Source: Bacillota bacterium | GTDB lineage: Bacteria > Bacillota > Dethiobacteria > DTU022 > UBA8154 | Direction: 5' to 3' | Assembly: GCA_030656575.1 (NCBI GenBank) | Contig: JAUSPO010000117.1 | Span: 1 to 33,525 of the forward strand | Length of the DNA: 33,525 nucleotides | Part shown: positions 1 to 4,429 of the stretch, in pieces | Layout of the letters: every line of letters starts with the position of its first letter | How positions within the stretch are numbered: the first letter of the stretch is position 1 | Program-made: the position numbers and the translations under genes | The notes under the pieces: model-generated | Told to the model about the DNA's origin: nothing | The model's database searches: none | What the model saw: the letters and a program-made list of their open reading frames with translations, nothing else

Positions 1-1263
1 GCTCTGTTCCTTGTATTCTTTTAAGATTTCCCGGTCAGAGTACTGATCCAGGATATTAGTGATCAGAACAAAGCAGCTTTTTCGTTCTTTTTCTTTGACA
101 ATAGCCGCTTCATCAGTAAGGATTTCAAACTGCAAGCGGTAGAGGGTTTCTGTATGAGGTGCTCCGTTTTTCGGCTGGCGCCCGGGCTTTCTTTTCTCTT
201 CAGTTACCACCTGTCCCTGCATAGGATAGAAGGGATCACGATGTTGAAGCAGAAACTCCTCTAGAGCCTGCTGGGCGTCGGGCAAACAGGCAAAGCACTG
301 TTTCTCCGCCTTTTTGATGGCTTTCTCCTGTGACTGGCGCTTTTCCAAGAGATTTTTCTCCAAAGACTTGGCCTTACGCCCGTCCAGTACGGAAGAATGT
401 ACTACAATGAAACGGTATCTTCGGCCGTCTATCTCTTCAATAAAGGACTTAGACTTGTAAGTAGCTGCTTTCTTTGCATCAGAAAATGTGCCCAGTTGCT
501 CCCAGTTATCCAGCTGCCAGGCCTTTGCCTTGAGCTCTTTTTCCAGATCAAAGTTGCCTGGAAAGCGTGAGATGAACTGTAAAGAGTGCTTTGCAGCTTG
601 CGTTAAATTATCTTCTGTAATCATGGCCGAATCGGCCACATAGATCACTTTTTGCATTAATTCGGGGTTGAGCATCTTACCCAGTTTGGCCATAAATTTG
701 AAGTTCCAGGTCTTGTCATCGGTGTTGCCACTTTCTACATCGCCAAGCAGTGGGATCTTATCGCCGGTAACACTCAGGCCTACAATAACCTGGTTCAGAT
801 CAGGTCTTTTGTCTTTACTGTAGCCTTTGGTGATATCCAGTTCATCATCATCATCTTCGTATTCACCATAAAAAGACCAGGATGTGGTATCGCTGTGTAT
901 AAAGGAAACGGGTACCTTTTCCTGACAGATGGCGTGCATGCTAAGCGTAGAGAATACTTTTTCTTCACCAGCCAGGTGTAGCTTATCCATTGCCCGGGCC
1001 AGGTTGTAATCACTTAGATCCTCCGGGGTTATCCCTATGCCGAAAAGATTTCCCGTATCCATACCTGTATAAAACTCGTTTACCCGGTAAAGGGGCCTGC
1101 GTCCGCAGAAAATATTGATGACCATGGCCTTTATCCTGGCTCCCGGAGAAAGCAAACATTGTGCCGGGTCCCACGGAAGCAACTCATCAATAATTTTACC
1201 AAACTCCAGTTGGTCGTATAACGCCGCGATGAATCCGGCCGGGCCGGACGTGTAAACAAACAT
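1..1263 (-). CDS. IS1634-like transposase, 3' end cut by the window edge
   Basis: I translated the minus strand and found one uninterrupted frame of 421 codons from ATG at 1263 to base 1, with no stop, so the gene continues beyond the window. A GGGAGG ribosome site lies just before the start (about 1270-1276). The protein has the look of the IS1634 family of DDE transposases. A motif around residue 125 (HSDTTSW) would hold the first catalytic Asp and VADSAM near 211 the second; GYSKDKRPDLNQV around 147-159 is typical of the family. The reading ends at LKEYKEQS, where the region carrying the catalytic Glu normally begins, so the Glu lies outside. It would cut and rejoin the element's own ends. 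I could not fix the terminal inverted repeat; the element's upstream edge probably lies between 1290 and 1400. The visible part is intact. Confidence 0.85.
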   Translation of the reverse strand, partial: MFVYTSGPAGFIAALYDQLEFGKIIDELLPWDPAQCLLSPGARIKAMVINIFCGRRPLYRVNEFYTGMDTGNLFGIGITPEDLSDYNLARAMDKLHLAGEEKVFSTLSMHAICQEKVPVSFIHSDTTSWSFYGEYEDDDDELDITKGYSKDKRPDLNQVIVGLSVTGDKIPLLGDVESGNTDDKTWNFKFMAKLGKMLNPELMQKVIYVADSAMITEDNLTQAAKHSLQFISRFPGNFDLEKELKAKAWQLDNWEQLGTFSDAKKAATYKSKSFIEEIDGRRYRFIVVHSSVLDGRKAKSLEKNLLEKRQSQEKAIKKAEKQCFACLPDAQQALEEFLLQHRDPFYPMQGQVVTEEKRKPGRQPKNGAPHTETLYRLQFEILTDEAAIVKEKERKSCFVLITNILDQYSDREILKEYKEQS

Positions 1264-1455
1264 AACAGCACCTCCCGGTTCTATAATACTATAACCGTAC
1301 CAAAAGTACAAGGTAAAATATGGAAATTAGCGCTGTTTTTGCAACTTTTTTGAACTTTTTTTCTGCAATTGTGTTGCCATTATAAATATTGCGTTTGGGA
1401 AAAGTTAGGTTGTTGAATGTGAGGTGCATCGCAAAAAGCTCAAGTAAAAAAATTC

Positions 1456-1484
1456 TTGACATGTTACGTCCAGCGTGTTATTCT
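1456..1484 (+). promoter_or_regulatory. Consensus sigma-A promoter facing the hairpin-rich non-coding region
   Basis: TTGACA at 1456-1461 and TATTCT at 1479-1484 are separated by exactly 17 bases. No good open frame follows for about 790 bases; the sequence downstream is a run of inverted repeats. This suggests a promoter for an untranslated RNA, or one carried by the end of the neighbouring insertion sequence. The match is direct; promoter activity is inferred. Confidence 0.5.
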
Positions 1485-1556
1485 TAATTTACTGAATTGT
1501 TACTAATAACCTACGCTCCTATGCAGCGTAGGTTTGTCAAAAAGTTTTTTGTTAAA

Positions 1557-1584
1557 CTTATGAATCAAATATTTGATTCATAAG
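1557..1584. repeat. 28-bp perfect palindrome
   Basis: Two 14-base arms, CTTATGAATCAAAT and ATTTGATTCATAAG, are exact reverse complements with no spacer. On DNA this could be an operator or a recombinase/transposase binding site. On RNA it would fold as a very stable stem with a tight loop. It is not followed by a T-tract, so it is not a simple terminator. Confidence 0.7.
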
Positions 1585-1719
1585 TCAATTGAGATAATAA
1601 GATCTCAATTTTGTATGTCAGGACGTTAAGCTCCTGGCAAAAAAAATGGTACACGTGTGTGTAACGTGTATCGGGAAGCTGACAACTTCCCTGTTCCGCG
1701 TCGTTTGTGTTGATGATGG

Positions 1720-1795
1720 AATAAGCTCCTTGGCAGAGCTCTACTCTTTTTTAGGGCTTTTTTTGATCCGTGGAGCTTATTTTATTTTTATTTAA
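1720..1795 (+). terminator. Probable terminator with long stem-loop
   Basis: AATAAGCTCC (1720-1729) pairs with GGAGCTTATT (1772-1781), followed by a T-rich run to about 1793. Inside the loop a second hairpin (AGCTC with GGGCT) is followed by seven T. Either could end a transcript started at 1456. The large loop makes this less certain than a compact terminator. Confidence 0.4.
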
Positions 1796-2053
1796 GTGGA
1801 TAAAAAAACAACTCGTTGTGAACCGGCAATTTCTACGCCTGATTTCGAGGGCGAAGAAAGACCAGCTATTAAATGTCAAGTGACTTTTGAAGAAAAATTT
1901 TAAGTGTCTTGGCATTAATATCCTCTAATCTTGACCAGAAAAAAGCGCATCGCAAACGTCATTAATATCAATTCCAGTATCTGATGATATTGATGGTGAT
2001 CTATTACCTCCCCGGTTCTGCTTTAGTCAGTTTTACAGAAAATGACAGGACAA
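1796..2053. other. Intergenic stretch without a clear gene
   Basis: Only very short frames are present. A 35-codon GTG frame (1796-1903) has no ribosome binding site. A possible stem pairs ATTAATATCA near 1961 with TGATATTGAT near 1986 (one G-U). I see no tRNA, repeat array or recognised riboswitch here. Confidence 0.4.
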
Positions 2054-2126
2054 AATCCCCGGCGAAGCTTTATGCTTTTTTGCCGGGGATTGTTAATTTG
2101 CAGCCCATAGTAAGGGCTGCTTTTTA
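2054..2126 (+). terminator. Tandem hairpins ending in an intrinsic terminator
   Basis: The first hairpin pairs AATCCCCGGC (2054-2063) with GCCGGGGATT (2082-2091). It is followed by a compact terminator, GCAGCCC (2100-2106) with GGGCTGC (2114-2120) around a seven-base loop, then TTTTTATTTTTT. The second is a standard rho-independent terminator. It closes whatever is transcribed from upstream and isolates the two small genes at 2271 and 2582. Confidence 0.75.
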
Positions 2127-2270
2127 TTTTTTAAAAACTCAATACTGTATTAAATAAGTCAGGTAGATGCGAACCCCCGCAGTTGCGGGGACTGTGCGGC
2201 TTGTCCGTGACCCTGCCGGTGACGCTACATATGTTTTTATTTTTTTAAGAGATAGGGATGTTGGAATTAA
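2127..2270. other. Leader region with GC-rich hairpin before the small-gene module
   Basis: CCCCGC (2175-2180), AGTT and GCGGGG (2185-2190) form a tight hairpin in otherwise AT-rich DNA. GTGAC repeats follow at about 2206 and 2220. No clear promoter was found. This could be a recombinase binding region or a regulatory leader; nothing decides between them. Confidence 0.3.
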
Positions 2271-2549
2271 ATGAAAATAGATAGTTTGGGCTTGCCGGAG
2301 AGGATCAAGCAAGCTCTTATGGCGGCGTTGTCAGGGGGTGAACTAATGCTAATTAACAGCATCACTACTGTTGATGTTGTCAAAATATCCGGGTCGCTGG
2401 GAAAGCAGGGCTGGAGTTTATATCAACCACAACAGCCTGAACAACCAGCGGTTGCAGAATTAAATACTGCGCTAGATGGTTTAAAGATATTGAATGATAA
2501 ATTGATAGAATTTAACAAAATTGTTGATGAGCTTCAAGATTATCTTTAA
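2271..2549 (+). CDS. Small protein of unknown function in the recombinase module
   Basis: The frame encodes 92 residues from ATG at 2271; the ribosome site is weak (GGAA a few bases upstream). I do not recognise the family. The N-terminal half is mixed. After a Pro/Gln-rich linker around residue 62-70 the last 30 residues are rich in Leu, Ile, Asn and Asp with heptad-like spacing, suggesting a short coiled coil and self-association. No membrane segment or metal motif is visible. It lies 32 bases before the next small gene and in the same direction as the serine recombinase, so the three probably form one operon. It could be an accessory factor of the element, such as a directionality or copy-control protein, but that is inference from position only. 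Confidence 0.5.
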   Translation: MKIDSLGLPERIKQALMAALSGGELMLINSITTVDVVKISGSLGKQGWSLYQPQQPEQPAVAELNTALDGLKILNDKLIEFNKIVDELQDYL

Positions 2550-2581
2550 CATATGGGAAATATTAAAGGAGGTGATCGATA

Positions 2582-2812
2582 ATGCAAAGAGCAGCAAGAA
2601 TAATTATTGCTATTTTAATAGCACTCATATTGTTTTTACGTGACGAAGTGGGAACTGCACCAATGCCTAAAAAAAATAAGTTACAACAGATATCAATTCT
2701 ATACAATAGCATAAATGACATAAATGATCAGAATATAAATTACGATGTGGCCGCTGAAATACTTTTGTCTTTGCTTCAAACGAAAGGAATTGTTCCAGTT
2801 AATGATGAATAA
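2582..2812 (+). CDS. Small protein with N-terminal hydrophobic segment, recombinase module
   Basis: The frame encodes 76 residues from ATG at 2582, behind an excellent ribosome site (AAAGGAGGTGATC, 2567-2579). Residues 4-19 (AARIIIAILIALILFL) form a single hydrophobic stretch that could be a membrane anchor or an uncleaved signal. The remaining part is soluble and polar, with the pattern of a small helical domain (QQISILYNSIND and VAAEILLSLLQTKG). I do not recognise a family. It sits 30 bases before the recombinase start and shares the AT-rich composition of its neighbours. A role in the same mobile element is likely from context but the function is unknown. Confidence 0.55.
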   Translation: MQRAARIIIAILIALILFLRDEVGTAPMPKKNKLQQISILYNSINDINDQNINYDVAAEILLSLLQTKGIVPVNDE

Positions 2813-2842
2813 TAATATATCTTATTGAAAGGGGGTGAGTTT

Positions 2843-4366
2843 ATGCAAAAAGCAGTAGCATATGGCAGATATTCGACTAATATGCAACGCGAAGAATCTA
2901 TTCAAGCACAAATGAGAGCCATTCGGAAATATGCTGATCAAAACAATATATTTATTATTAAAGAATATGTAGATGTTGCGCAATCTGGACGAAGTGACAA
3001 GAACAGATCTCAATTTAAGCAAATGATAAATGATGCTATGAACAAGCATTTCGATCTAATACTTGTTCATAAACTAGACCGGTTTGCACGTAACAAATAT
3101 GATAGTGTTATACACAAGAAGAATCTAAAAAATTGCAATGTAAAAGTTATTTCGATTACTGAATACATTGGCGAAGGCCCCATCTCTATCGTCATGGAAA
3201 GTCTTTTAGAAGCCATGGCTGAATTCTATTCTTTAAATTTGAAAGATGAATCGCTGAAAGGTTTACTTGAAGATGCTTATAAAGGACTTTTTAATGGGGG
3301 TAGGTCACCACTAGGATATGATATAGTAGAACGTAAATATGTAATTAACGAATGGGAATCTGGTGCAGTCAGAACAATATTTAATATGTATGTAAACGCA
3401 GCAACTTATCAAGAGATAATTGAAAAATTGCATGAAAAAGGCTATAAAACTAAGTCTGGTAAACCGTTTAAAAATACTGGCTTACATGCGATTTTAAACA
3501 ATGAACGATATGCGGGAGTGTATGTTTTCAACAAGATACCACGATCAAAGGATAACGACAATGATATTAGAAACAACAGAATTACTAACTCGGAAGAGAA
3601 AATAATAAGAATTCCGGGGGCTATCCCGGCGATCATAACCACAGAAACATTTAAAAAAGCACAAGAAGTAATGAAGAAACGTAAACAGCGGCCACGGAAT
3701 GAACTAAAAGCTGACGAACAATTTATTTTAACCGGGTTGATTACTTGTAGTTGTTGCGGAAACAAAGTATATGGCAACAGCCGTCGAAACGGTGAGGGTA
3801 AAAAATACCGGTATTATACTTGTAAAAATTATCACAAGGGTGGGGGATGCAGCACAAAACCTGTACCAAAAGAAACGTTTGAAAATCTTATTACCAATTC
3901 ATTAATTAAGAACATTTTTCATCCAAACAATGCTGAGGTATTAACCAAAAGACTTAATGAACAAATTAAAGAAAGGTTCACTCAATCATTCGAAGATGAA
4001 AAAGTTATAAAATCACAATTAACTCAAGTGCAGAATAAAACTAAAAACCTTCTTAAAGCTATCGAAGAAGGAGCAAGTGAATTTATTATAATCAAAGACA
4101 GATTAAAAGAGCTGCAGGAAGAAAAAGAAAAACTGCAATTGCAACTGGATCAGCTACAAATGCAGCTAAATAGAAAAACAATTGATACTGACACGGTCCG
4201 GGAATTCATGGCAAGGGGCCTGGAAAACCTGCAAGCCAGTAATCCCGAAGCTTGCAAAAAACTTTGCAATGAATACGTTGAAAAGATTATTGTTTCACAA
4301 GATGAAGTCAAAATTTATCTCTGTTTCACTTGTGTGGATAGCAATGGTGTCGGGGATGGGACTTGA
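2843..4366 (+). CDS. Large serine recombinase (integrase type)
   Basis: The protein has 507 residues. I chose ATG 2843 because GAAAGGGGGTGAG ends seven bases or fewer before it; an in-frame TTG at 2825 would precede that site. The resolvase domain (about 1-150) carries Arg9 and the catalytic Ser11 in YGRYS, plus LDRFAR at 78-83. A Recombinase domain follows (about 155-280; GGRSPLGYD at 152-160). A zinc ribbon has Cys302, Cys305, Cys327 and Cys336. A charged coiled coil spans roughly 370-450. This is the layout of large serine integrases, which insert and excise DNA by double-strand exchange through a phosphoserine bond. All key residues are present, so it may be active. Its last codons read into the 3' end of convergent tRNA-Leu, as expected if the tRNA end is the attachment site. 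The gene is visibly more AT-rich than the core genes downstream. Confidence 0.9.
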   Translation: MQKAVAYGRYSTNMQREESIQAQMRAIRKYADQNNIFIIKEYVDVAQSGRSDKNRSQFKQMINDAMNKHFDLILVHKLDRFARNKYDSVIHKKNLKNCNVKVISITEYIGEGPISIVMESLLEAMAEFYSLNLKDESLKGLLEDAYKGLFNGGRSPLGYDIVERKYVINEWESGAVRTIFNMYVNAATYQEIIEKLHEKGYKTKSGKPFKNTGLHAILNNERYAGVYVFNKIPRSKDNDNDIRNNRITNSEEKIIRIPGAIPAIITTETFKKAQEVMKKRKQRPRNELKADEQFILTGLITCSCCGNKVYGNSRRNGEGKKYRYYTCKNYHKGGGCSTKPVPKETFENLITNSLIKNIFHPNNAEVLTKRLNEQIKERFTQSFEDEKVIKSQLTQVQNKTKNLLKAIEEGASEFIIIKDRLKELQEEKEKLQLQLDQLQMQLNRKTIDTDTVREFMARGLENLQASNPEACKKLCNEYVEKIIVSQDEVKIYLCFTCVDSNGVGDGT

Positions 4367-4429
4367 ACCCACATGGTGTTATCCACACGGCCCTCAACCG
4401 TGCGCGTCTGCCTGTTCCGCCACCCCGAC
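4345..4429 (-). tRNA. tRNA-Leu (anticodon GAG)
   Basis: On the minus strand the acceptor arms GTCGGGG/CCCCGAC pair. There is a long variable arm as expected for leucine, an anticodon loop TTGAGGG between CACGG and CCGTG, and an encoded CCA at 4345-4347. The last 22 bases of the recombinase gene, on the opposite strand, lie within its acceptor and T arms. The tRNA is complete and should be functional. Confidence 0.93.

Follow-up and report, generated by a model that had tools for sequence, protein, structure and literature searches.

The window, a stretch of 33,525 nucleotides that makes up a whole contig (G000:C36) of a 195-contig genome, contains from position 1456 to 1795 a promoter-like site followed by seven strong hairpins, the last of which is a nested, terminator-like structure, and this stretch lies between the end of an insertion sequence and a large serine recombinase gene at a tRNA gene. 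Judged from its sequence, it is best filed as a real and unusual hairpin array and as a candidate small RNA gene borne by an integrative element, of which we found no relative. The initial annotation had described a promoter with 17-base spacing, a run of at least six hairpins and a T-rich terminator, located between an insertion sequence and a serine-recombinase module by a tRNA, and the features listed in Table 1 bear this out. It had also reported a 28-base perfect palindrome, which is indeed a palindrome but measures 30 bp.

Table 1. Features in and around the hairpin array (window coordinates).
Feature	Position	Strand	Remarks
DUF4277 ORF (insertion sequence)	1-1311	-	Pfam
End of the DUF4277 transposase insertion sequence	1421-1423	none	copies diverge there; sequence to the right lies outside
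Promoter-like site	1456-1484	+	TTGACA 1456-1461, 17-nt spacer, TATTCT 1479-1484, TG before the -10
Hairpin 1	1508-1534	+	10-bp perfect stem, 7-nt loop CCUAUGC
Weak A/U hairpin	1538-1551	+	5 bp; predicted fold
Perfect palindrome	1556-1585	none	30 bp; matches its own complement
Hairpin	1587-1610	+	9-bp perfect stem, loop AAUAAG
Hairpin	1616-1639	+	8-bp stem, loop CGUUAAGC; centroid fold
Hairpin	1650-1670	+	7-bp perfect stem, loop GUGUGUA
Hairpin GGGAAG/CUUCCC	1673-1691	+	loop CUGACAA
Nested terminator	1720-1793	+	inner stem 1735-1760 with U run; outer stem 1720-1729/1772-1781, then T-rich tail
Second structured block	2054-2130	+	strong hairpin 2054-2091; terminator 2100-2120 with T tail
92-aa ORF	2271-2549	+	no Pfam match; best PHROG E 0.2, baseplate
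76-aa ORF	2582-2812	+	hydrophobic N-terminus, ribosome site judged strong by eye; no Pfam family above cut-off (best E 0.072)
Large serine recombinase	2825-4366	+	513 aa; phrog_95 integrase, E 3e-111; listed from TTG 2825, ATG at 2843
tRNA-Leu (gag)	4345-4429	-	likely integration site of the element

The promoter-like site predicts an RNA start at ~1491, and 23 nt separate its -10 from the first hairpin. Perfect arms of at least 7 bp are present in hairpin 1, the palindrome and the hairpins beginning at 1587 and 1650, with further stems in those beginning at 1616 and 1673 and in the nested structure (1720-1781). The predicted fold, in a model of nested pairs only, is a row of simple hairpins in which unpaired stretches of at least 4 nt are short (4-8 nt), and the terminator sits directly at its end. 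An own promoter and an intrinsic terminator framing a noncoding stretch, as in a small RNA gene, are present here at the level of sequence consensus. In line with the initial view that the stretch holds no gene, the two plus-strand frames inside the array, the strand tested, matched no Pfam family, nothing in or beside it scored above the Pfam cut-off, and no leader peptide with a ribosome site was seen by eye in 1491-1790. The best direct-repeat family comprises four scattered 14-nt copies, one of which shares 79% with each of the other three. Further downstream, the region 2054-2250 comprises the second structured block with its terminator, and a CCCCGCAGTTGCGGGG hairpin ahead of the 92-aa ORF.

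The fold of 1490-1800 reached -107.7 kcal/mol, compared to -66.95 ± 4.12 for 100 dinucleotide shuffles (z -9.89), none of which was as good. Three perfect arms of at least 9 bp fall within 103 nt, while 0.023 are expected per 311 nt of random sequence of like composition. When 982 tiles of 250 nt, covering ~251 kb of the genome, were ranked (window and sampled other contigs, plus strand only, with 12 shuffles each and hence rough z-scores), tile 1501-1750 ranked first with z -8.7, the next one scoring -7.2; an extra offset tile, 1520-1769, gave z -6.5. In 217,772 bases sampled from other contigs of the same genome, 154 hairpins have arms of 7 bp or longer, and 35 of these reach 9 bp or more. 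Three hairpins share a 300-nt stretch at only two places in this sample and four do so nowhere, although two loci of other genomes do have four. We also tiled the regions upstream of 12 recombinase relatives besides the window, 11 of which were long enough for scoring, and tiles of two related elements, G132 and G138, are comparable to the window or stronger in folding (z -15.1, -7.8; -6.7, with -7.0 for the window in that tiling), so that strong folding alone is not unique to the window. An array-like row of hairpins was not seen by eye at the four places inspected in these upstream regions.

Two hairpin clusters elsewhere were considered as similar arrays and set aside: the one in G040 (L029/L061) differs and sits among open frames, and the one in G132 (L059 8476-8663) differs and lies inside a 367-aa frame. 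The latter consists of repeated TCTGAAA..TTTCAGA palindromes, perhaps an origin inside a replication gene. G138 carries three long inverted repeats, two of them perfect and ~50 nt in length (L062 5832-6582), 4-4.7 kb upstream of its related recombinase and in a region devoid of listed ORFs of at least 80 aa. At another locus, L095, a three-hairpin cluster is found ahead of a regulator gene, which we take to be LacI-like, the label being our own.

A strict promoter test, demanding 6/6 matches at -35 and at least 4/6 at -10, gave P ~0.001 for an 85-nt and 0.013 for an 847-nt sequence of similar composition, with three such sites window-wide. A loose scan of 1250-2300 on both strands showed no excess (3 sites, 2.5 ± 1.7 expected), and because of this, despite the strict P value, we rate the site as a good promoter candidate and no more. 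Terminator-like sites in the same region and on both strands numbered five, compared to 1.0 ± 1.1 expected, and three of them are on the plus strand.

Both strands of the whole stretch fold strongly (plus strand, z -9.9; minus strand, -89.5 kcal/mol, z -8.22), which leaves room for a role at the DNA level. In the 5' half (1500-1612), none of the 37 pairs on the plus strand is G-U, and the minus strand reaches -41.1 kcal/mol versus -37.2 for the plus strand. The 3' half (1613-1800) folds better on the plus strand (-66.5 versus -45.4 kcal/mol; 10 of 60 pairs G-U), as expected of an RNA read from that strand, with the G/T bias of the plus strand accounting for part of the difference. Going by these predicted folds, the 3' half argues for an RNA read from the plus strand, and the 5' half is neutral.

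Copies of the insertion sequence on contigs C109, C184 and C193 match 1286-1423 (C193 from 1290) at 85-86% and diverge past TTGAATGTRAG. Because these three copies stop there, the end of the element is fixed at ~1421-1423, outside the hairpin stretch, which is itself present in a single copy in its genome (99.25% complete). These two findings speak against an insertion-sequence end or a MITE, and leave the earlier alternative that the hairpins are remains of such ends unsupported. The 35-aa frame at 1796-1903, for which Pfam gave no match, resembles the C-terminus of a conserved ~87-aa protein, presumably SpoVS, with 11-12 of 19 residues alike, in 3 of 10 loci examined. Of 298 other genomes, two have weak matches to the 92-aa ORF (best E 1.8e-4); phages and IMG/VR gave none. 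The four ORFs of 1-4366 that were tested matched no partition or replication family.

The 3' end of the recombinase gene overlaps that of tRNA-Leu(gag), and the element, to which the hairpin array presumably also belongs, is truncated by the contig end. Of 149 genomes, 33, its own among them, encode a relative of the recombinase at an E cut-off of 1e-20. ARAGORN, applied to ten loci (the nine best and L053), placed a tmRNA beside the recombinase 3' end in four, tRNA-Leu(gag) in two, tRNA-Glu in one and none in three, and Rfam detected a tmRNA in one (L037) of four more loci. Thus, at 8 of the 14 loci scanned, from eight other genomes (L025, L026, L027, L028, L030, L032, L037 and L053), the recombinase lies at or beside a tRNA or tmRNA 3' end. 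The 12 nt that close the tmRNA of G132 occur again at a distance of ~40.5 kb, and the 31 nt after this second occurrence resemble the 3' end of the recombinase gene, which would fit an element bounded by direct repeats; a second copy of the RNA-gene 3' end was not found in the examined stretches of G138, G007 and G021. The genome studied here has a second full tRNA-Leu(gag) on contig C26 (1-88; L055, L066), identical over 88 nt and followed by a terminator-like hairpin, which may mark the far end of the element or, in some members of the population, an unoccupied site. A contig-level genome search with the recombinase returned one distant locus only and an IMG/VR scan none; tblastn hits in 429 phage and 279 plasmid records were all below 60% identity, and four of these neighbourhoods were inspected. 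That serine recombinases of one group lie at the 3' ends of tRNA and tmRNA genes is relevant to how integration sites are selected. A 2014 paper states that serine integrases were not then known to use such ends.

Consistent with the initial annotation, in which the RNA was not recognised, Rfam 15 at gathering score over the whole window found no family in the array. The Rfam check proposed for this region, run with relaxed thresholds (E up to 10) on 1300-2300, gave 19 matches, all below cut-off; the best of these, located at the palindrome, was to a plastid 3'UTR hairpin (30.2 bits versus a cut-off of 51.5), and an Rfam scan of 14 recombinase loci gave no match for the array. DNA searches returned matches of 20-48 nt only, in 14 of the 148 other genomes of a set of 149 relatives (best E 9.2e-4) and in 4 of the 397 others of a set of 398 genomes of the phylum (best E 1.6e-4), own genome included in each set, and we take these as chance. 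Phages and plasmids, searched at the DNA level in distant mode, contained no relative of the array. Two covariance models, R1 and R2, were each built from one sequence entered twice because no relative was at hand; models built in this way detect relatives only if they are fairly close, and the stricter filters applied lose weak matches. Either model matched only the own genome among 199, as did R2 among 97 of the class (own genome counted in both), and R1 also matched its own site on the other strand. Applied to 20 further sources, other recombinase elements among them, the models matched only the window, and the exact patterns of two of the hairpins were absent from IMG/VR. The lack of relatives makes a covariation test impossible, so that the absence of homologues with compensatory changes, which had been named as refuting a structured RNA, counts in letter only, the data being lacking. 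The proposed new structured RNA class finds no backing in these searches, which yielded neither covariation evidence nor a second copy, and a single copy that stands alone is not enough to establish a class.

We tentatively read the stretch as a ~300-nt terminated noncoding transcript of an integrative element, probably regulatory, and put this at somewhat under an even chance. In this reading, a small noncoding RNA gene would be carried by an integrative element that entered the tRNA-Leu(gag) gene at its 3' end; RNA polymerase would start near 1491 and stop at the nested terminator near 1790, and the ~300-nt product would fold into seven consecutive strong hairpins. Its regulatory action might depend on short base-pairing contacts, made by short loops on rigid stems, or on protein binding. 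These modes are favoured because a long antisense partner is absent from the own genome, unpaired stretches are short, and loop pairing is unremarkable: for three of four nearby genes, 78, 51 and 23 of 100 shuffles paired as well with the start region, and for the recombinase start region 2 of 100 did so, which is weak given four tests. The P value of the promoter, the terminator at the array end, the fold z-score and tile rank, the plus-strand bias of the 3' half and the single copy outside the insertion sequence speak for an RNA gene. Speaking against it are the lack of homologues or covariation, a 5' half that fits DNA palindromes equally, the absence of a loose-promoter excess and of an antisense partner, the weak loop pairing and the strong folds in two related elements. 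If transcribed, the array would be a compact, sequence-orphan regulatory RNA tied to a serine recombinase, and could help in studying how such elements stay silent while integrated. That it represents a new kind of element-borne RNA, a rigid row of seven hairpins with short exposed loops that controls how serine-recombinase elements integrated at tRNA genes in this bacterial class excise or set their copy number, seems very unlikely.

The same arrangement might instead form the leader of the recombinase operon, transcription from 1456 being meant for 2271-4366, with the terminators at 1720-1793 and at 2100-2130 holding it back until some signal opens them. The 92-aa, 76-aa and recombinase ORFs all lie downstream on the same strand, with two terminator blocks in series, and part of the 5' arm of the terminator (TAAGCTCCT) recurs at 1627-1635 in an earlier hairpin, so that alternative pairings exist, although this repeat is short and may be chance. 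The array is, however, longer and more uniform than attenuators need, no leader peptide was seen, and neither a T-box nor another leader family reached cut-off in 1300-2300 (His_leader at 1956-2098, 16.8 bits versus 49), and we consider attenuation unlikely.

It also appears rather improbable that the hairpins act as DNA, with palindromes extruded or on single-stranded DNA serving as a transfer or replication origin or as protein-binding sites of the element. The Watson-Crick stems of the 5' half, equally strong on both strands, and the z-scores of the whole stretch (-9.9 and -8.2) suit such a site, and elements with related recombinases hold other palindrome-rich stretches, namely the ~50-nt perfect inverted repeats of G138 and the repeated palindromes of G132. 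The GTGTGTA loop at 1657-1663 recalls, in our own likening, the transfer origin of pMV158, but the repeats of that origin, as far as the account used here describes them, overlap and are mutually exclusive, whereas the series here is non-overlapping. No clear iteron array is present, Mob_Pre, the one relaxase family searched for, had no match in the own genome in a search whose control found it nowhere, and a DNA site leaves the framing by promoter and terminator unexplained. Stacked terminators and old mobile-element debris between the insertion sequence and the recombinase, with no function as a unit, would account for the lack of relatives, and the 35-aa frame hints at decayed DNA beside the array. 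Decay would, however, have worn down the perfect stems, and four perfect hairpins lie here within 163 nt, between a promoter-like site and a terminator, a density found nowhere in the 217,772 sampled bases, though at two loci elsewhere; this makes incidental debris quite unlikely.

Several known systems can be compared with the candidate RNA gene. Type III toxin-antitoxin RNAs consist of head-to-tail RNA repeats ahead of a toxin gene. A repeat search found no head-to-tail units in the array, its hairpins differ in sequence, and Pfam gave no toxin match above cut-off for the downstream ORFs, and this system was rejected. ROOL and GOLLD RNAs, to which the stretch had initially been likened, are noncoding, structured and located in phages and prophages, often near tRNA islands; according to the part of the source used here, both are conserved, ROOL is highly complex with multiple pseudoknots and many GOLLD RNAs exceed 800 nt (PMC12286853). 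The array shares with them only its location and noncoding nature, and is a row of simple hairpins of ~300 nt with one known copy, beside one tRNA. Membership is not supported, as there was no gathering-score match, the predicted fold lacks a complex branched architecture, and no second species was found among the genomes searched. As described in the portions drawn on here, the MOBV transfer origin of pMV158 has three overlapping repeats around one nick site (PMC5863519), and the regions deleted in the work on the replication RNAs of mycobacteriophages Alma and LadyBird measure ~400-500 nt (PMC7157519). The pMV158 origin resembles the array in having several inverted repeats beside a promoter with an extended -10, but its repeats overlap and those described here are consecutive. 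The Alma and LadyBird RNAs adjoin parABS in extrachromosomal prophages, whereas the element described here appears integrated; like the candidate, whose transcript is predicted, they are short noncoding transcripts of a mobile element. Within the parts considered, these two systems show that mobile elements use both short RNAs and hairpin DNA (PMC7157519, PMC5863519).
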